DNA from: Parasphingorhabdus flavimaris
GTDB taxonomy: Bacteria; Pseudomonadota; Alphaproteobacteria; Sphingomonadales; Sphingomonadaceae
Direction of reading: 5' to 3'
DNA length: 64,000 bases
NCBI RefSeq assembly: GCF_013371215.1
Contig: NZ_JABWMH010000003.1
Coordinates: forward strand, 186,001-250,000
Of the stretch, positions 52,187 through 56,804 are shown one piece after another. The position numbers were made by a program, and so were the translations under genes. The notes under the pieces were generated by a model. That model did no database searches. It saw only the letters and a list, made by a program, of their open reading frames with translations, and was not told the origin of the DNA. Each line of letters starts with the position of its first letter. Position 1 is the first letter of the stretch.

Positions 52187-52843
52187 CTAGCCAAGCAGGC
52201 TTTCGAACAGCGGCAGTCCATCAGTCCCGCCGTGCTTGCCGTCGATGGCGCGCTCCGGGTGCGGCATCATGCCTAGGACATTGCCTGCTTCGTTGATGAT
52301 ACCGGCAATATTCCGCGAGGAGCCGTTGATATCGTTTCTATAGCGAAACACGACCTGGTTGCGACTCTCCAACTCATCCAACGTGTTGGCATCGGCGAAG
52401 AAATTGCCGTCATGATGGGCAACCGGAACCGATATGGGTGTGTTTTGCGTGTAGCGCGACGTGAATATAGTATTGCAGTTGCTAACGTCGAGTTCAGCAT
52501 CCCTGCAAATAAAATTGATGTTGCTGTTTCTCATCAGCGCTCCGGGCAACAGTCCGATCTCGGTGAGGATCTGGAACCCGTTGCACACGCCCAGGATCTT
52601 GACCCCGCGCTGCGCTGCTTCAACGACAGAATTGATGATGTTTGATCGGGATGCCATCGCCCCGGATCGCAGATAATCGCCATAAGAAAAGCCACCTGGA
52701 ATTGTGATCAGATCCAGCCCAGAAGGAAGTTCGCTGTCACCGTGCCAGACCATATGAGGCTTGTTGCCCGAAACCGTTTCCAGGGCGACGGCCATGTCGC
52801 GGTCACAATTCGAGCCGGGAAAGACGATCACCGCAGATTGCAT
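52187..52843 (-). CDS. purQ: Phosphoribosylformylglycinamidine synthase subunit PurQ
   Basis: Glutamine amidotransferase subunit of FGAM synthase, step 4 of purine synthesis. A 218-residue protein with [28 protein letters not shown], the nucleophile cysteine in [10 protein letters not shown], and the C-terminal MMPHPERAI with His and Glu of the triad. The ATG is at 52843; overlaps purS by three bases (ATGA). The large subunit purL is not in the window. Confidence 0.96.
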
Positions 52844-53097
52844 CAGCCCATCGTCCCCTGCGCCGCATCCGCAATCTCGATCTCGTAATTTTCGATTACG
52901 GTATTGGCGAGCAGCTTGTCGCACATCTTCTCGATGTCTGCGCGGCTGACCGACGCATCAACGTCAAGTTCGATCAACTTGCCGGCGCGAACATCATTGA
53001 CGCCCGAGAAATCGAGACTTTCGAGCGCATGATGGATGGCTTTTCCCTGAGGATCCAATACGCCATCTTTCAGCGTTACAAATATTCTGACTTTCAT
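52843..53097 (-). CDS. purS: Phosphoribosylformylglycinamidine synthase subunit PurS
   Basis: An 84-residue bridging subunit of the three-part FGAM synthase. Starts [24 protein letters not shown], with GKLIELDVD and ENYEIEI. GAGGACG precedes the ATG at 53097. Directly upstream of purQ on the minus strand; the usual neighbour purC is about 2.9 kb further upstream because of the insertion. Confidence 0.96.
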
Positions 53098-53214
53098 CCG
53101 TCGTCCTCGCGTTGTTCCGCCGCCAATATCGCCTTGCTATAGCGGCAAGATTAGCAGGGGCAAGAGCAAGAAAGCAAAATGGAAAGGTCGCGCGATGAAT
53201 TGCGGCGATTGACC

Positions 53215-54609
53215 TCAGAAATAGCGGGCCAATTTGAAATTCACCCGGTGGCGGTTCATTTCGTAGAGGTCGTAATTGCTGTCCACCCGTGAATAATTAT
53301 AGTCTATCGAGGGAGAGAAACCGAGGAATTTGATTTTGCGGCTGCCGATATAGGCGCGTCCGAAGCTTCTCCAGTCGTCCCGGTTTTCTGTCGAATAGAG
53401 GAGTAATGGTGCATCAAATTCGGAACGACTGATGCTGGCTGAGACACCTGCATTCAGGCCGAGAGGCAATTCACCACCGATGCCCAGATTCATGCCATAG
53501 TTGAAACTCGAGAACCCGGCTTCGTTGAGCAGATCGCGCCTCGCGAAGATACTGGCAGACGCAATCAGGGATTTTCCGATTAGCTGCTCATATGTGACAT
53601 TCGCGCCGAGTTGCCAGCCGCTATAGGCGTTGCTGAGCTGCGATTCTGTCCGGCGAGCATCCAATTCAAATCCCAGTCGCTGTCCTTCATTCAGTGCCTG
53701 TTGGTAGCCGATCCGACCGCCATATTCCCGAGTGGCCAATCTACCGCCATACCAGCGCTGAAGACCGACTGCCTGCAGCGAAAGGCTGGCATAGCGAGCG
53801 ACGCGAAGCTCAGGGCCAGCAGCGACCTGAACAACAATATCGTCGGCTTCCTTGCCGTTATAATTGATGATTTTGCTGTCGGCATCGAACAACAGGGCTA
53901 CACGATCACTGGCTTTCACGCGAACGCCGCCGGAAAACCCAGCTGTCTGGCCGACGCCGGAACGTTCGCGTGCGTTTTCGTCCAGCTGCAGAGGGAGTTT
54001 GATCGGGCCGAAGTTGATATCGATGGTTTCGGCGCTGGTGGCGCCGTTGATATTGGTATCCGGGGCAAAGCCGAAGTCGAAACTGAAGCGCCAGACCCGC
54101 TGGTCGCGCAAGATACTGCGGGTATTGCGAATAGTCCGCGCGATTTCATCCGGCAGGTTTTCGTCATTCTGGGCGAGCCGGAAATGATAGTCCGCGCTGG
54201 CCTCCTTGCCAGTCATCAGATAGGCTCTCGCGAGTTCCAGACGAACACGGGTCTGTCCCGGGTTTTCGTCCAGAATCGAGCGGAACTTTGTGATCGCTCC
54301 GTCGGTATCGCCGGTCTCGATAGCGATGTAGCCAGCCAGAAATCGCTGTTGTATCTGCATTTCGGGAACTTGTCCCAAAGCCTCGACCATCGGCAGAGCT
54401 GCCTGATATTGCTTGGCATGGATCAGGGCTTCGGCTTTGGCCAGAAGCTGCTGGGGCGTTACCCGAACATGGCATTGGCCAGCATCGTCGCAGGAAGGCT
54501 GAACAACAGCGGCGATGTCTGTTGTCGAGCCGGCTGTTGCCGCACTCGATGCCGTCGCGAGAACGAAAGACGCAACTGTGGCTTTGACCAATTTGGCGGA
54601 ACGGGACAT
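53215..54609 (-). CDS. Slam-type surface lipoprotein assembly modifier
   Basis: A 464-residue outer-membrane protein: signal peptide ending near TAGSTTD, an N-terminal TPR-like domain (about 50-165; LLAKAEALIHAKQYQAALPMVEAL, FLAGYIAIETGDTDGAI) and a C-terminal DUF560-like barrel (about 170-464; FDFGFAPDTNING, ending in aromatic RYF). This arrangement is the Slam family, which moves specific lipoproteins to the cell surface. The partner lipoprotein gene ends nine bases upstream. Family assignment is fairly sure; substrate inferred. Confidence 0.85.
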   Translation of the reverse strand: MSRSAKLVKATVASFVLATASSAATAGSTTDIAAVVQPSCDDAGQCHVRVTPQQLLAKAEALIHAKQYQAALPMVEALGQVPEMQIQQRFLAGYIAIETGDTDGAITKFRSILDENPGQTRVRLELARAYLMTGKEASADYHFRLAQNDENLPDEIARTIRNTRSILRDQRVWRFSFDFGFAPDTNINGATSAETIDINFGPIKLPLQLDENARERSGVGQTAGFSGGVRVKASDRVALLFDADSKIINYNGKEADDIVVQVAAGPELRVARYASLSLQAVGLQRWYGGRLATREYGGRIGYQQALNEGQRLGFELDARRTESQLSNAYSGWQLGANVTYEQLIGKSLIASASIFARRDLLNEAGFSSFNYGMNLGIGGELPLGLNAGVSASISRSEFDAPLLLYSTENRDDWRSFGRAYIGSRKIKFLGFSPSIDYNYSRVDSNYDLYEMNRHRVNFKLARYF

Positions 54610-54618
54610 GGCTAGCCT

Positions 54619-55875
54619 TTAAGGTTTCTTGCCGACAAACGTTCCCAGAATATCGATTCTCTCGTCAGGTGTGCCACCAACAATCCGGTAGCCGCCACCC
54701 AGTTCTGCTGCATTGGGGCCATAAAAGGCACCGTCAATGCTTGAGCCAGCAATCACCATGTCGAGACGGGCACCGCCCGGATTGACGAACCATGCTTCGT
54801 TAAACTGCCCGAAGAAGCCTCCGGCGGATACCAGATTGATATCGCCTGCGCCGTTGGCGCGGAACTGGGCGTTCTGGAGAATAGTGTGCTGACGGCTCGT
54901 GCCGTCAAACAAAGGCGCTCCGACCGTGCCGTCTAGCGATAGCGAGAATGTATTGGCGCCGAAATCTACATTGGTGGTTGCGCGGCCTGCGATCCACTGG
55001 AAATAGGTATCGAAATTGCCAATGGTATCGGGCTGGTCGTTGAACACCATCGACGCAAGCATCGTGCCCTCGAACGTTCCTGTCCCTGTCGTTGGCACAT
55101 TGTCGCTCGCGGTAAGCTGACCAAAAGCGAAGGCTCCCCGTTCGAACTGACTATTCTGTTCGATATATTCCGTCGTCGATCCGTCGGCATTATCAATTGT
55201 GATATTGTTGACGGTCGCCCTGTTCCGCAAATATCCGGCAAAAGACACGTAGTCGGTCTCTGTTCCGGGCGTCTGGTAGAAAAATGTCGTCCCCTCGTAG
55301 GTTCCGGGCTGACCAGGGTCTACAAGACCGAAAACAAATTCGCCCGGCACAGGGGTTGTCACATTATTGGCGGACCCGGATTCCAGATAGTTGATACCCT
55401 GAACCCCGAATTGGGCCGATCCCAGGTTGGGTGTGCCGATTTGAGGTTCGACGATCCCTCCGAAATCAGTGCGGTGCAAGGGGTCCTGAAAGCGGCTCAC
55501 GGCGGACGTTCCTGCCAACGGATTGGTGAAGGTCACGTCGAAAATCGCGTCGCGCGGATTATAGGCAATGGTCAAGGCGCTGTTGCGAACCGTCGTGGCA
55601 TCGCCCTGATATAATTGACCAGTCTGACCTGCGCCGGGATCACTGGGCGAGTCCACCCTGTAGTTATAGCTGTGAGAAGCGCCAACGGCCGTATAGGTTT
55701 TAGGTTCGGTCGGGTCGACAAATGTGTGGGCCGTTCCGCCTCCGGTCCCGCCCCCTGTTCCGCCGCCGCCTGTGCCGCCCCCGGTTGGAGGCGCAGTGCT
55801 GCCGACCGATTGAGGTCCGGCTCCACCGCAAGCGGCGAGCATCGTTGTCGTGGCGAGCAAAATTAGTAAGCGCAT
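54619..55875 (-). CDS. Surface lipoprotein with TbpB-like C-terminal barrel
   Basis: A 418-residue lipoprotein: signal peptide with lipobox LAAC, a Gly-rich flexible linker (GGGTGGGGTGGG), a beta-rich body and a C-terminus with GAFYGPNAAELGG and IDILGTFVGKKP. The last matches the FYGPxAxE pattern of TbpB-like beta-barrel domains. Such lipoproteins are typical Slam substrates, and the slam gene follows directly. Ligand unknown. GAGGAA lies about ten bases before the ATG and overlaps a direct repeat. Confidence 0.82.
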   Translation of the reverse strand: MRLLILLATTTMLAACGGAGPQSVGSTAPPTGGGTGGGGTGGGTGGGTAHTFVDPTEPKTYTAVGASHSYNYRVDSPSDPGAGQTGQLYQGDATTVRNSALTIAYNPRDAIFDVTFTNPLAGTSAVSRFQDPLHRTDFGGIVEPQIGTPNLGSAQFGVQGINYLESGSANNVTTPVPGEFVFGLVDPGQPGTYEGTTFFYQTPGTETDYVSFAGYLRNRATVNNITIDNADGSTTEYIEQNSQFERGAFAFGQLTASDNVPTTGTGTFEGTMLASMVFNDQPDTIGNFDTYFQWIAGRATTNVDFGANTFSLSLDGTVGAPLFDGTSRQHTILQNAQFRANGAGDINLVSAGGFFGQFNEAWFVNPGGARLDMVIAGSSIDGAFYGPNAAELGGGYRIVGGTPDERIDILGTFVGKKP

Positions 55876-55888
55876 CGGAAATATTCCT

Positions 55889-55907
55889 CACATGAGTTCC
55901 ACATGAG
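55889..55907 (-). repeat. Direct repeat of CACATGAG at the start of the lipoprotein gene
   Basis: CACATGAG occurs at 55889-55896 and 55900-55907, 11 bases apart, in the leader of the surface-lipoprotein gene; the copy nearest the gene overlaps its Shine-Dalgarno. Could be an operator or a chance. Confidence 0.35.
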
Positions 55908-56027
55908 GGCGGTGCTATCATTTCAATGGTTAAATTCGCGTAAACCATAAGCGATATTCACGGGATATGCCCGCCCCCTGACGGGGTTAATCGCATGATC
56001 ACCTAACCACGGCCCCAAAAACTATGG

Positions 56028-56804
56028 TTACTTTCCGCGCTTCTTTCGTTCACTATTGAGGTCGAGCACTTCGCTTTCGCCTTCCGGGAACAGGCCCAGT
56101 CGACGGGCAACTTCCTGATAGGCTTCGGCTTCGCCGCCAAGATCGCGACGGAACCGGTCCTTGTCGAGCTTTTCATTGGTCTTGATATCCCACAGTCTGC
56201 AACCGTCGGGGCTGATTTCGTCGGCCAGAATGATCCGCGAGAAATCACCTTCGAAAACCCGTCCGAATTCGAGCTTGAAATCGACCAGCTTGATCCCGAT
56301 CCCGGCAAACATGCCGGCCATGAAGTCGTTGATCCGGATGGCCATGGCAGAAATATCCTGCATCTCTTCCTGGCTCGCCCAGCCGAAGCAGGCGATATGT
56401 TCTTCCGCGACCAGCGGATCGCCCAGCGCGTCATCCTTGTAGCAATATTCCAGCAATGTGTGCGGGAGCGGTGTGCCTTCTTCGATGCCGAGACGCTTGG
56501 AAAGAGATCCGGCAGCAACGTTGCGGACGATCACTTCGATCGGAACGATCTCGACCTGTTTGACGAGCTGTTCGCGCATGTTGAGGCGGCGGATGAAGTG
56601 GCTGGGGATGCCGATATGGCCGAGCAGGGTGAAAATATGCTCGCTGATCCGGTTGTTGATCACGCCCTTGCCGTTGATCGTGCCTTTTTTCTCGGCGTTG
56701 AAAGCGGTCGCATCGTCCTTGAAATACTGAATTATGGTGCCGGGCTCCGGGCCTTCATAAAGAATTTTGGCCTTGCCTTCGTAAATTTGGCGACGACGGG
56801 ACAT
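56028..56804 (-). CDS. purC: Phosphoribosylaminoimidazole-succinocarboxamide synthase
   Basis: SAICAR synthase, step 8 of purine synthesis: a 258-residue protein with [45 protein letters not shown] and VDFKLEFGR. In many alphaproteobacteria purC, purS and purQ are adjacent; here two unrelated genes separate purC from purSQ. Confidence 0.96.

Follow-up and report, generated by a model that had tools for sequence, protein, structure and literature searches.

Why does a sphingomonad carry, between two purine genes, a surface-lipoprotein system of the kind described in Neisseria, and what would the system do there? The locus lies in a 64,000-nucleotide stretch of the Parasphingorhabdus flavimaris genome (contig NZ_JABWMH010000003.1, positions 186,001 to 250,000; hereafter the window, numbered from its first letter), where a gene for a TbpB-like lipoprotein and one for a Slam protein, the outer-membrane component of type XI secretion systems (T11SS), stand between purC and purS. 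The explanation that we find best overall, and consider fairly probable, is that the two genes form a mostly vertically inherited Slam unit within the motility and attachment programme of the regulator CtrA. The pair consists of the following features (aa, amino acids).

54619..55875, minus strand: predicted Slam-dependent surface lipoprotein (cargo), 418 aa, with signal peptide, Cys16, Gly-rich linker, handle domain and C-terminal barrel
55828..55839, minus strand: lipobox LAAC of the lipoprotein (aa 13–16), with the same Cys in all 28 orthologues aligned
54625..55098, minus strand: TbpB_B_D barrel domain of the lipoprotein (aa 260–417), from Pfam
53215..54609, minus strand: Slam / T11SS outer-membrane protein, 464 aa, from Pfam and the predicted model
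54103..54456, minus strand: TPR-like helical domain of Slam (aa 52–169), from Pfam and the predicted model
53218..54093, minus strand: SlipAM outer-membrane barrel of Slam (aa 173–464), from Pfam and the predicted model

Both open reading frames (ORFs) are intact on the minus strand, with 9 bp between them. The Slam protein matched PF04575 SlipAM over the curated Pfam cut-off at aa 173–464 (E 1.1e-23, 84.6 bits vs. 22), preceded by TPR_19 (E 2.8e-9, 37.6 vs. a cut-off of 25); the Slam-specific TPR_Slam model stayed below its cut-off on this protein (27 vs. 35.2). In the lipoprotein, aa 260–417 matched PF01298 TbpB_B_D (E 2.4e-7, 31.7 bits vs. a cut-off of 26), and the protein also matched TbpB chains by sequence (E 5.6e-5). 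Its signal peptide and lipobox were assigned by motif, without a signal-peptide predictor, Cys16 being preceded by MRLLILLATTTMLAA; a Gly-rich linker is present. Against the NCBIfam equivalog NF041636 (slam_lipo) it scored 23.8 bits, far under the cut-off of 80, and it thus belongs to a different subfamily from that equivalog. With E values up to 0.001, the pair gave the only SlipAM match and the only TbpB_B_D match in the genome. A preliminary description, made from the letters of the window, had proposed a lipoprotein with a Gly-rich linker and TbpB-like C terminus and, nine bases downstream in the same direction, a TPR and beta-barrel protein; the spacing and both profile searches agree with it, and we regard the identity of the pair as a Slam with its cargo as practically certain.

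The predicted structures agree as well. The AlphaFold model of the lipoprotein, built with 28 aligned sequences as input (pLDDT 81.5, pTM 0.79), has low confidence at residues 1–48, and the remainder is a strand-rich handle and barrel. A stretch FQDPxHR (aa 129–135) of the handle is conserved. The top Foldseek matches were TbpB chains (E 1.1e-7), with low TM-scores of 0.2–0.3 against whole TbpB, which we attribute mainly to the two lobes of that protein. A second structural aligner matched the TbpB C-lobe with Z 16.6 over 214 residues at 3.5 Å, followed by NHBA (Z 14.6), fHbp (about Z 14) and HpuA (Z 13.9); the predicted fold also matches LbpB. TbpB, NHBA, fHbp and HpuA are Slam substrates, and by its model the lipoprotein looks like a single-lobe member of this cargo fold. 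The Slam model (pLDDT 84.4, pTM 0.64) consists of helices at 52–169 and then strands at 173–463. Its first Foldseek matches were BcsC and PelB, with porins and other barrels also present, and no solved Slam structure was among the best 50.

The Neisseria systems (TbpB, LbpB, HpuA and fHbp; DUF560 subcluster 1A) share with this pair the TPR and SlipAM barrel, the adjacent lipoprotein and the handle with a TbpB-type barrel. Here, in contrast, the lipoprotein has a single lobe where TbpB has two, the host is a sphingomonad, no linked TonB receptor was seen and a CtrA-type box lies upstream. The protein is thus not a TbpB proper, having one TbpB_B_D stretch and, in the model, one handle-plus-barrel lobe. 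We found no linked tbpA either: between 50.5 and 58.5 kb the sole ORF of receptor length encodes a 757-aa protein that we take to be ParC-like, and few receptors occur in the relatives. A closer counterpart is DUF560 subcluster 1C, drawn "largely from environmentally isolated Sphingomonadaceae", the same family, whose DUF560 proteins were searched for TbpBBD partners (PMC8406197; papers given by PubMed Central (PMC) number are cited here from excerpts of their text). The pair most likely belongs to this subcluster, which in the excerpts is a network cluster with no characterised representative and no described locus, promoter or purine context (PMC8406197); to this extent the preliminary description was also right in presenting a little-characterised two-gene Slam system in a sphingomonad. 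The "Sphingomonas surface proteins" and haemophilin-like group 2 named in a 2025 T11SS survey are likewise TbpBBD lipoproteins beside T11SS genes (PMC12282271). The survey's Sphingomonas type is multi-barrel, with several TbpBBD domains and Pro-Thr repeats, whereas the lipoprotein here combines one barrel with a Gly-rich linker (PMC12282271).

The evidence on control comes from the DNA upstream of the lipoprotein gene, which holds one conserved element.

55928..55944, minus strand: CtrA-box-type element TTTACGCGAATTTAACC, of putative function, its 5' end 69 bp before the lipoprotein start

Alignment of the upstream DNA showed TTTACGCGAATTTAACCAT to be conserved in the genus. For a broader sample, public genomes were scanned with the lipoprotein alignment, giving 78 loci (the best 80 of 91 were kept); these loci and the window, minus L181 and L186, provided 77 upstream regions. 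The pattern TTWR-N7-TTAA was present 50–90 bp upstream in 53 of the 77 orthologues and a relaxed form in 64. Of 755 other ORFs from these loci, 3 were preceded by the box, and two of the 3 overlap or adjoin the pair (L136 and L157). In a nonredundant set of 40 lipoproteins (<65% identity), 25 upstreams had the strict form and none the reversed pattern, and when gapped 4-mers were enumerated de novo, TTTA-N7-TTAA came first (20/40 vs. 1/371 in the background). The right half is conserved furthest, TTAACC occurring in 38 of the 40 against 5 of 371 background regions and starting 47–70 bp ahead of the lipoprotein start codon; Chakrabartia-type loci (L133 and kin) have kept TTAACC and lost the left half. 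Dinucleotide shuffles of the 40 regions gave a mean of 0.28 (maximum 3) for the strict form and of 1.65 (maximum 7) for TTAACC. The strict form was retained in 11 of 18 loci unlinked to pur genes, and no box was found upstream of the M16 peptidase genes that fill the purC–purS slot of some relatives (0/19), in empty slots (0/11) or before Slam cargos of another type (0/4). As the box occurs in pur-unlinked loci and in none of 30 pair-less slots, the element travels with the pair and not with the place.

Is this element a CtrA site? The CtrA motif is given as TTAA-N7-TTAA (PMC9437464, PMC11264516) or TTAA-N7-TTAAC (PMC7200025); most CtrA-activated promoters of Caulobacter have one box at −35, and functional sites with a one-base deviation in the left half are described (PMC11264516). 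A box of this type near the promoter, conserved in orthologues, is the sequence signature of a CtrA regulon member, and the pair has it. The CckA–ChpT–CtrA relay is kept in Sphingomonadales (PMC2877005), and a protein encoded in the genome shares 80% identity with Caulobacter CtrA. The exact pattern TTWAN7TTAACC gave 13 matches at 11 genome sites, two of which match on both strands. Apart from the pair, sites lie near hemE, a FliS/sigma-54-activator pair, DUF4402 proteins and a POTRA protein, about 400 bp from an SCPU/PapD-like pair, and by a gene for a GGDEF protein divergent from one for a lipoxygenase-like protein. Among the eight genus genomes in which we looked for recurrence, the box is again near hemE in three (L199, L219 and L210; Pfam on the first two). 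It also precedes a small gene that neighbours one for a receiver-domain protein in L225, L226 and L207 (Pfam on L225); the small protein (L225:1558–1893) has no Pfam match, and L226, L207 and L198 likewise carry the box.

Several observations weigh against CtrA. The box is not over-represented genome-wide, the exact form having 13 matches vs. 22 for the reversed pattern and the form with one mismatch 23 vs. 75, and most of the eight genus genomes have fewer matches than the reversed control; a box match alone therefore proves nothing. Several of the 11 sites have no plausible target (e.g., L192, L197 and L200). The left half of the window's own copy is TTTA, one base off TTAA, 15 of the 40 nonredundant upstreams do not have the strict form and two do not have TTAACC. 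In several of the former, TTGAC replaces the left half-site and could simply be a −35 element, and another regulator could own TTAACC. The absence of a genome-wide excess and the TTGAC replacements are also what would be expected of a strong housekeeping promoter with no link to CtrA, its −35 element being TTGAC or TTTAC and the flanking TTAACC bound by another factor. We consider this rather unlikely, as the most conserved part is TTAACC and not the −35-like half, a 12-base Sphingomonas phage repeat ending in TTAACCAT overlaps predicted CtrA sites (PMC9437464), and the box recurs near hemE, a gene with a CtrA-controlled promoter in Caulobacter (PMC11264516). On the sequence evidence, CtrA control of the pair is probable.

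Such control would be a new association. A literature search for "type XI secretion" with CtrA gave nothing, and no paper linking a T11SS cargo to CtrA was found; "surface lipoprotein" with CtrA gave solely a meningococcal genogrouping paper, whose ctrA is presumably the capsule gene of that name. A search on purC, purS, Sphingomonas and lipoprotein gave no match mentioning Sphingomonas. CtrA is likewise not mentioned in the DUF560 survey (PMC8406197), in the 2025 T11SS survey (PMC12282271) or in the other papers listed by the search for such a link (15 listed of 16).

Between the box and the lipoprotein start lies a second candidate element.

55886..55908, minus strand: predicted leader hairpin, with the GAGG of the putative Shine–Dalgarno sequence in its 3' arm, conserved in close relatives only

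A 9-bp hairpin over the presumed Shine–Dalgarno sequence was predicted in all six sequences folded (the window and five relatives), with z scores from −1.1 to −3.8 and −1.4 for the window. Some changes preserve pairs (T–G to T–A) and L187 breaks two; the hairpin may provide translational control.

The preliminary description also held that the pair had landed between purine genes, and the flanks were therefore compared across the family.

56028..56804, minus strand: purC, upstream flank of the pair, from Pfam and NCBIfam
52843..53097, minus strand: purS, downstream flank of the pair, from Pfam and NCBIfam
52187–52843, same strand as the pair: purQ, after purS, from Pfam and NCBIfam

Of 298 family genomes, 90 have a SlipAM domain of any type, spread over 54 of 96 genera. 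Two sets of 40 were compared: Slam loci taken from the best-scoring places, one for each genome, and purC regions of genomes outside the first set, chosen among the matches listed and mostly one per genus; 38 of the latter genomes have no SlipAM match and two (G107 and G092) have one elsewhere. A lipoprotein of this type stands beside Slam in 29 of the 40 Slam loci, 20 of which have purC and purS in the stretch, and the order purC–lipoprotein–Slam–purS was found in all five other same-genus genomes fetched. Of the 78 scan loci, 77 carry titles that name a sphingomonad genus, Sphingomonadaceae or Sphingomonadales. The gene right after that of the lipoprotein is slam in 75, and in the other three the contig or the fetched stretch ends there. 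The full order is present in 47 of the 78, or in 48 by gene order if L164, with its purC on the opposite strand about 5 kb off, is included; about 1–5 kb of other sequence separates purC and the lipoprotein in 7 of the 48. The remaining loci have no purS (6), no purC (4) or neither (17) in the stretch, or are cut short (3). In 7 of the 40 pair-less regions purS was outside the stretch; the other 33 include both genes, and their purC–purS gaps are empty (<700 bp) in 11, filled by an M16 peptidase in 19 and by other genes in 3. The occurrence of the pair between purC and purS in all relatives thus holds within the genus, as far as the five genomes show, and fails across the family, and the supposed usual adjacency of purC and purS applies to about a third of the pair-less regions.

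A recent insertion of the pair, by horizontal transfer into an intact purine operon, would fit the adjacency of purC and purS in those 11 regions, the limited spread of SlipAM in the family and the purC tree, in which at least 4 gains or losses of the pair fall on well-supported branches. (Over the 63 rows of this tree, with a bootstrap that had not settled, the presence of the pair changes 7 times in all, compared with 19 for shuffled labels.) We nevertheless consider it very improbable. Besides the shared order within the genus and in the scan loci, Slam distances correlate with purC distances (Spearman 0.49, 0 of 2,000 permutations as high, 23 taxa), the main purC clades are repeated in the Slam tree, the GC (guanine plus cytosine) content of the pair is 0.53–0.57, the same as in the flanks, and no transfer RNA (tRNA) gene was found from 20.4 kb to the window's end. 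A mobile-element insertion was rejected for the even GC, the shared order in relatives and the distance of about 33 kb to the only tRNA of the window. The fit is poorer for the cargo (0.23, 4 of 2,000 permutations as high), which weighs against joint inheritance. From the shared order, the agreement of Slam and purC distances and the common clades, we conclude that the pair has long stood at the purC–purS site and was for the most part passed on together with it, losses, replacements or repeated gains having occurred as well. It may have been acquired long ago by the ancestor of the genus, or more than once. The landing between purine genes is not supported.

The same comparisons yielded further observations on the region and the family. 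On co-transcription of purC through purS, a scan for promoters and terminators found fewer sites than in shuffles, and one promoter-like element is recognisable in 9 of 10 aligned genus sequences, L113 being the exception.

53136..53166, minus strand: promoter-like element CTCTTGC...GCTATAGC between Slam and purS

The M16 metallopeptidase in the slot has about 965 aa (L085:2804–5701 and 18 other loci); one representative was identified by Pfam and the rest by BLAST clustering and phmmer. A second Slam type exists in the family, in which an 882-aa protein with three TbpB_B_D stretches stands beside a divergent Slam (L067:6458–9106); no CtrA-type box was found upstream of this cargo. In genus members, a gene-transfer-agent-like tail protein (Rcc01698_C, Phage-tail_3) lies 2–2.5 kb beyond purQ (L111:13798–16023 by Pfam; L113:14215–16422 and L135:13690–15906, both about 50% identical to that of L111), and this gene-transfer-agent-like cluster may also be present below 50.5 kb in the window.

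What would the pair do under CtrA? In the working that we propose, phosphorylated CtrA would bind the TTTAC-N6-TTAACC box near the promoter and give rise to a lipoprotein–slam mRNA. The lipoprotein would be exported by Sec, lipidated at Cys16 and transferred to the outer membrane, where Slam, with its periplasmic TPR domain and outer-membrane barrel, is predicted to move it to the surface by way of the C-terminal TbpB-like barrel. At the surface, its single handle-plus-barrel lobe would bind a ligand within the motility, attachment and biofilm programme governed by CtrA in sphingomonads. That the T11SS pair belongs to the CtrA regulon and the TbpB-fold lipoprotein is a programmed surface component, an adhesin or recognition protein perhaps specific to a cell-cycle stage or subpopulation, has in our judgement just under an even chance. 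A role in attachment or biofilm formation specifically is possible and still doubtful; we raise it because in S. melonis the CtrA relay reportedly "controls motility and biofilm formation", as the title of that study has it.

The main rival on function is the capture of metal or haem, suggested in the preliminary description, with the lipoprotein as a TbpB- or HpuA-like co-receptor that passes its ligand to a TonB-dependent receptor encoded elsewhere. The predicted fold matches TbpB, LbpB and HpuA, and verified animal-associated T11SS cargos include haemophores and metal-binding proteins (PMC12282271). Beyond the shared fold, nothing positive for capture came from our data. TonB receptors show no sign of enrichment near the pair, judged from two figures obtained by different methods: Pfam, run on 74 large ORFs from 67 pair loci, recognised a TonB-receptor plug domain in 5 of the proteins, and phmmer with two query receptors found 9 receptor genes in 8 of the 40 pair-less loci, two being the queries themselves. 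(Eleven loci, mostly near-identical genus loci plus the fragments L186 and L187, were left out before Pfam; of 85 large ORFs, 74 were submitted, 9 were dropped for overlapping known genes on the other strand, and 2, at the L134 edge and in L180, were dropped unchecked.) An earlier phmmer count of receptors in 0 of 78 pair loci was withdrawn, as Pfam found receptors that phmmer had missed. Moreover, fHbp and NHBA share the TbpB-type fold yet are not co-receptors, and the conserved upstream motif is CtrA-like (iron-type boxes were not searched for), which hints at a role other than metal capture. We therefore consider scavenging unlikely.

The purine flanks bear on a wider pattern. Purine metabolism (map00230) is among the pathways reported to co-occur with T11SS (PMC12282271), and our data suggest that a conserved gene position can give part of such a signal, so that the co-occurrence can mean inherited position and not shared metabolism. 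We read it this way because the box is often still there where the pair has left the pur genes, and the slot has no box in 30 of 30 pair-less cases.

The pair is thus of a known kind, and its conserved CtrA-type control, if it holds, is the new part. CtrA-controlled surface genes of alphaproteobacteria, those of pili and flagella, likewise have a TTAA-N7-TTAA-type box upstream of the surface component, whereas the component here is a T11SS cargo. Every verified T11SS belongs to a single animal-associated cluster (PMC12282271), and a conserved CtrA-type promoter provides a direct and cheap test of what such systems do in other bacteria. If the reading of the pair as part of the CtrA programme is true, Slam systems would have a part in the development and surface attachment of free-living bacteria, beyond nutrient piracy from hosts and immune evasion.

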